Shown here: positions 47,057 to 47,100 of the stretch, piece after piece | Layout: the number at the start of each line of letters is the position of its first letter | How positions within the stretch are numbered: position 1 is the stretch's first letter | Origin: Peptoniphilus asaccharolyticus DSM 20463 | GTDB taxonomy: Bacteria; Bacillota; Clostridia; Tissierellales; Peptoniphilaceae | Direction: 5' to 3' | DNA: 64,000 nt | Assembly: GCF_900176115.1 (NCBI RefSeq) | Contig: NZ_FWWR01000017.1 | Location: forward strand, 1-64,000 | Position numbers and translations under genes: made by a program | Notes under the pieces: generated by a model | What the model was told of the DNA's origin: nothing | Databases searched by the model: none | Seen by the model: only the letters and a program-made list of their open reading frames with translations

Positions 47057-47100
47057 TAAGTAAGTAAGTAAGTAAGTAAGTAAGTAAGTAAGTAAGTAAG
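47057..47100. repeat. (TAAG)11 tetranucleotide tract upstream of the adhesin gene
   Basis: Eleven perfect TAAG units fill 44 bases. They end 43 bases before the ATG of the LPXTG adhesin, in the region where its promoter or leader must lie. Such tracts gain and lose units by slipped-strand pairing and can change promoter spacing. Confidence 0.95.

Follow-up and report, generated by a model that had tools for sequence, protein, structure and literature searches.

A perfect tetranucleotide tract ahead of a thioester adhesin gene

In Peptoniphilus asaccharolyticus DSM 20463 the gene for a putative thioester-domain surface adhesin is preceded by a perfect tract of eleven TAAG units, and judged from the sequence of this one allele in one genome it is plausible that the tract acts as a phase-variation switch of the adhesin. 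In the form that we favor, to which we give about an even chance, the tract would be a slippage-prone contingency locus, with the promoter upstream, the tract within the mRNA leader and graded expression of the gene. Tandem runs of short units often slip when they are copied, and by gaining or losing units they move the expression of a gene up or down.

The window, i.e. the whole stretch of 64,000 nucleotides that was analyzed (G+C content 34%), carries (TAAG)11 at 47057-47100 on the forward strand, as read directly from the letters and as detected by Tandem Repeats Finder (11.2 copies, 100% match). Between the end of the tract and the ATG at 47144 lie 43 bases (47101-47143, forward strand), including the Shine-Dalgarno sequence AGGAGG at 47130-47135. 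The number of perfect units, the distance to the adhesin start and the position outside the coding frame, which begins at 47144 and past the tract, all agree with a sequence-only reading in which the switch had been proposed. The longest period-4 run in the window measured 41, compared to a maximum of 13 and a mean of 9.0 in 60 third-order Markov simulations, and four consecutive TAAG units were matched eight times (overlapping matches) where 0.01 matches were expected. Hence the tract is long, perfect and beyond chance, as befits a simple-sequence contingency locus; (AG)5 was the only other simple tract in the window above the thresholds of the script used. Five consecutive units occurred nowhere but at the adhesin site when the whole genome of 2,232,586 bases was searched, and among 130 genomes of the family they were present in this genome and missing from the 129 others. 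They were also found in 77 stretches of viral contigs.

The downstream gene (47144-51535, forward strand) encodes 1463 amino acids with a signal-peptide-like start, as judged by eye, a thioester domain (TED), seven SpaA stretches (PF17802) and an LPKTG motif at the end, and contains four copies of a 363-base repeat that are about 98-99% identical. In the profile search the TED reached 52.1 bits with PF08341, for which the cut-off is 22. The words YCFN (residues 83-86) and TQKAIWYYTD (from about residue 185) fit the TED cysteine motif and the TQxx-hydrophobic-W motif as given in the accessible part of PMC4450167. With TED motifs, a repeat stalk and an LPXTG end present, the product is predicted to be a thioester-domain (TIE-type) surface adhesin. 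It is the only TED match in its genome and one of three anchor matches above the cut-off, the other two being located in a pilus cluster at C1:87-89 kb; the anchor model also matches 13 of 14 control genomes, in two of them above the cut-off.

Downstream of the adhesin gene lies a gene for a class C-like sortase of 212 amino acids (51626-52264, forward strand), which scored 125 bits against an NCBIfam class C cut-off of 160 and exceeded the general sortase cut-off. Upstream, groEL is followed by a hairpin with a T run, by eye a terminator, and then by a repeat element whose inverted ends of 35 nt are imperfect (together 46528-46760, forward strand). A second copy of the element is found at 52284-52507, so that two direct copies (86%) bracket the adhesin-sortase pair, and recombination between them could delete the pair. 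Many partial or full copies of this element are clustered elsewhere in the genome (L035, 3149-19139). Beyond the second copy a MarR-family gene is located at 52628-53056. In contrast to the adhesin-sortase pair, the pilus cluster of the same genome (L033:1845-7267; G000:C1:85845-91267) has a decayed look: its first pilin seems to be broken up into three ORFs (1845-2612, 2684-3157 and 3144-3359) and one sortase into two (6443-6997 and 7037-7267).

Homologues of the adhesin were found at a single locus in genome contigs (L024:2989-4948, from Peptostreptococcus sp. MV1) and at none in viral contigs or plasmids. For this only close homologue the best-matching segment (residues 7-282) reached 75%, and the DNA similarity of 91% over 1805 bases begins at 47246, past the signal-peptide region. 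The MV1 copy lacks the tract, has an unrelated 5' end and meets a TAA at codon 17 of its frame, which would make it a mosaic gene that is perhaps silent, unless a sequencing error is involved. When the full adhesin was compared to 61 genomes (60 relatives and its own), 12 gave matches: the genome itself and 11 others, in which no matching stretch exceeded 594 bases. In two genomes of the same genus (G001 and G002) no match to the adhesin, including its N-terminal part, was detected. Both possess groEL (98% in G001, 87% in G002), which in G001 is followed by other genes. The MarR gene is also present in G001, where DNA similarity extends to window position 53868 and the adhesin is absent.

Slippage-type tracts elsewhere in the genome and in relatives

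Further tracts were surveyed in a sample consisting of the window and 58 other stretches (1,213,980 bases, 54% of the genome). One additional tetranucleotide tract of at least four units was detected in this sample, (CGAA)14 at C15:322403-322458 (L038:2403-2458), which lies in frame within hsdS (PF01420) of a type I system that also comprises hsdM (TIGR00497) and hsdR. After the tract the other two frames are open for only 5 and 6 codons. Since they stop at once, most changes in unit number would remove the distal half of hsdS, whose product resembles a phase-variable specificity subunit. Between hsdM and hsdS lies a RhuM-family gene.

T tracts of at least 11 bases were found exactly three times in the whole genome, and A tracts of this length were absent. 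The T16 tract (L060:12079-12094) lies 50 bases before an ORF and is the spacer of a promoter-like site with a scan score of 7.5 and a spacing of 15, second best after a site of 9.0. For the T14 tract (L069:14401-14414), 65 bases before an ORF, no site in the region scored higher than the corresponding one (8.3, spacer 16). The T11 tract (L067:2287-2297), 199 bases before an ORF, was outside the best three sites of the scan, and its spacer of about 13 was assigned by eye. Each tract is preceded by TTG or TTGA, and the three ORFs have signal-peptide-like starts, by eye, and no Pfam match. T16 and T14, on the basis of the scan, and T11, by eye only, are candidate promoter-spacing switches. In the 1.21-Mb sample three T runs of at least 11 were seen where a third-order estimate gave about 15. 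Long T runs thus show no enrichment, and the case for switches rests on where they lie and on a gap in length, with 50 runs of 8 and one of 9 followed by those of 11, 14 and 16.

Among relatives, G001 contains one T16 tract, followed by TGATATAAT. The three T tracts of G002 showed no promoter-like setting by eye, which makes a genus-wide rule less likely. In a family member of another genus (G068), (AAGC)14 at L209 (G068:C24:1926-1981) lies in an ORF that by eye resembles a methyltransferase gene; as the tract encodes Ser-Lys-Gln-Ala repeats, the ORF is a candidate for a phase-variable methyltransferase. In the genome under study (ATTCAAT)5 was found just after an AraC-type gene (L066:18008-18042; G000:C1:282008-282042), with no switch setting evident. 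Shorter tracts in the sample included (AT)6, runs of 9, and units of 7, 9 or 10 bases in three copies.

The same genome thus holds further tracts at switch positions, which supports a contingency locus at the adhesin without defining it. Phase variation is the best reading of the adhesin tract because the lineage seems to keep a few slippage tracts, several of them at switch-like places. An alternative is a neutral microsatellite that arose in an AT-rich intergenic stretch and whose length has little effect. It would account for the lack of a conserved copy, of structure and of a strong promoter match, and it agrees with one genome and one allele. However, the tract is the only one of its kind in 2.23 Mb and stands at the only TED match of the genome, and switch-like positions are likewise taken by (CGAA)14 and by two, if not all three, of the long T tracts, so that we consider neutrality unlikely.

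Promoter and leader around the tract

To place the tract relative to transcription, the region was scanned with approximate sigma-A weights, and scores were compared to a null distribution for each region. A candidate extended -10 element, TG-A-TAGAAT, was found at 47043-47051 on the forward strand (-10 hexamer at 47046-47051); its score of 6.3 falls between the null median of 5.6 and the 90% point of 7.8 and is not significant. From this element transcription would start at about 47058, within the first bases of the tract. A site farther upstream, whose -10 at 46826-46831 is over 200 bases away from the tract, scored higher with 7.8 (in this longer region the null median was 6.8 and the 95% point 10.3). 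Both of the better-scoring candidates are therefore upstream of the tract, and within 47057-47143 no -10 candidate exceeded 1.9, whether the -35 was placed in the tract or not. A stricter consensus scan, which yielded 11 sites compared to 8.8 in shuffled sequences and was thus near chance, returned no forward-strand promoter site in 46080-47215, and so did not include the candidate at 47046.

Only 29 bases separate the end of the tract at 47100 from the Shine-Dalgarno sequence, too few for a full promoter, which takes about 36. Because no full promoter fits downstream and no candidate there scores above 1.9, a transcription start at or before the tract is favored, if unproven. If the tract is removed, the distance from the -10 at 47046-47051 to the ATG becomes 48 bases, close to the corresponding distances of 42 and 55 bases for the promoter-like sites at T16 and T14.

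These results bear directly on the claim of the sequence-only reading that unit number shifts the spacing between promoter parts. In such a NadA-like mechanism a core promoter would lie at or after the tract, and the units would move it nearer to or farther from a regulator site upstream. NadR belongs to the MarR family, and the MarR-family gene of the window lies nearby. A tract of very similar unit, (TAAA)n, precedes the adhesin gene nadA of Neisseria meningitidis and works by spacing upstream of the nadA promoter, as described in the accessible text of PMC2791445. Moreover, among 13 inverted repeats in 46770-47160, four have arms on either side of the TAAG tract, the best being 11 nt long with 91% match (47001-47011 and 47102-47112). 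However, the straddling repeats are AT-rich and imperfect and were counted without a chance control, and the best of them is unused in the predicted fold. As G001 has the MarR gene without the adhesin, the regulator is probably not adhesin-specific. The nadA tract is situated, in that account, upstream of the core promoter and between NadR operators, whereas here the 29-base gap and the lack of any -10 above 1.9 in 47057-47143 indicate that a core promoter of the nadA type does not follow the tract. We therefore regard promoter spacing as quite unlikely. The idea of an adhesin switch itself retains its plausibility, given the long perfect 5' tract and the switch-like tracts elsewhere, while the mechanism first proposed for it is not supported.

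Leader-peptide attenuation, as at the pil1 locus of Streptococcus gallolyticus, would require a translated tract whose frame decides on a terminator. The precedent is close in that a (GCAGA)n tract acts in this way before the operon of a sortase-dependent pilus in a Gram-positive organism (PMC3894217, in the part accessible). At pil1 the tract is read by ribosomes and acts together with a terminator; neither was found here. TAA occurs in all three forward frames of the TAAG tract, so that no forward reading frame passes through it. The upstream ORFs listed with starts in 46901-47057 stop short of the tract, at 47003 and 47053, and lack a Shine-Dalgarno sequence by eye. A coding or leader-peptide role of the tract is excluded as far as can be read from these stops. 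No terminator-like site was listed between the tract and the adhesin gene; the same scan listed one such site in 46000-48000, on the opposite strand (46340-46319), and it is incomplete since it missed the hairpin after groEL. The leader folds unstably, no better than shuffled sequences (z 0.01 and -0.62 in two runs), and Rfam gave no match with E up to 1. Attenuation is thus very improbable.

Equally slight is the chance that the complementary (CTTA)n belongs to a gene for a small hydrophobic peptide: one of the minus-strand frames has no stop in the tract, where it reads as a Leu-Thr-Tyr repeat, and stays open to the end of a listed ORF, but by eye that strand offers no plausible start codon and ribosome site ahead of the tract, and the listed minus-strand ORF (46846-47040) starts from a TTG after the tract.

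For the contingency locus with an upstream promoter, the following course is proposed. DNA polymerase would add or drop TAAG units by slipped-strand mispairing, giving rise to cells that differ in unit number. From the geometry and the weak promoter match, the promoter is most likely situated upstream of the tract, probably directly, and the tract may form the first 44 bases of the mRNA leader. Unit number would then set the length of the untranslated leader and in this way affect the start-up of transcription, mRNA stability or translation, with graded rather than on/off expression as the outcome, comparable to (AGAT)n before Moraxella uspA2. In a wider version, the genome would possess a few slippage switches that work in three ways: at the start of the adhesin mRNA, through the -35/-10 spacing that poly-T tracts give to promoters of exported proteins, and through the on/off state of half of a type I specificity subunit. 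At the adhesin, leader length would by itself set mRNA start-up or stability, with no part played by promoter spacing or a leader peptide; this wider version we hold to be possible rather than probable.

Known systems and biological meaning

By analogy, the (AGAT)n tract of Moraxella catarrhalis uspA2, which reportedly lies in the transcript, is the closest counterpart of the adhesin tract. Both are tetranucleotide tracts of similar unit number that precede a surface-protein ORF and lie outside the coding frame. According to the accessible text of PMC7302503, 13, 14 and 18 units are present in three strains, and unit number alters the mRNA level, up to 3.37-fold in one strain and modestly in another. 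M. catarrhalis is Gram-negative, and its tract lies 132 bases before the ORF as compared to 43 here (PMC7302503).

Within the Gram-positives, short upstream repeat tracts also affect the expression of LPXTG proteins, as described for bca and R28 in the part of PMC7098570 at hand. The units differ in size from the one described here, those of bca in Group B Streptococcus being of five bases, (AGATT)n, and those of R28 in group A of one base, poly-T; the 2003 bca study is cited in both PMC7098570 and PMC2791445. For bifidobacterial pili, a slippage switch is reported (PMC9187656). In view of these Gram-positive precedents the adhesin tract would be a switch of a known kind. Among the matches listed in the open-license literature, no report was found of such a switch in this group of anaerobes, to which the source presumably belongs, or of slippage tracts at thioester adhesins. 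The sortase, the LPKTG motif and the G+C content of 34% point to a low-G+C Gram-positive source. Nor was a bacterial TAAG tract found in the open-license literature, where the one match listed concerned malaria parasites.

Adhesins of the TED type bind host protein covalently, as stated in the accessible part of PMC4450167. If the proposed switch holds true, the adhesin would be made at different levels in the cells of one clone, which would bear on colonization and on immune recognition. The adhesin switch would come alongside a type I restriction-modification system that is itself possibly switchable, and a Gram-positive lineage would join the simple-repeat switches, which so far are known mostly from Gram-negative mucosal bacteria.
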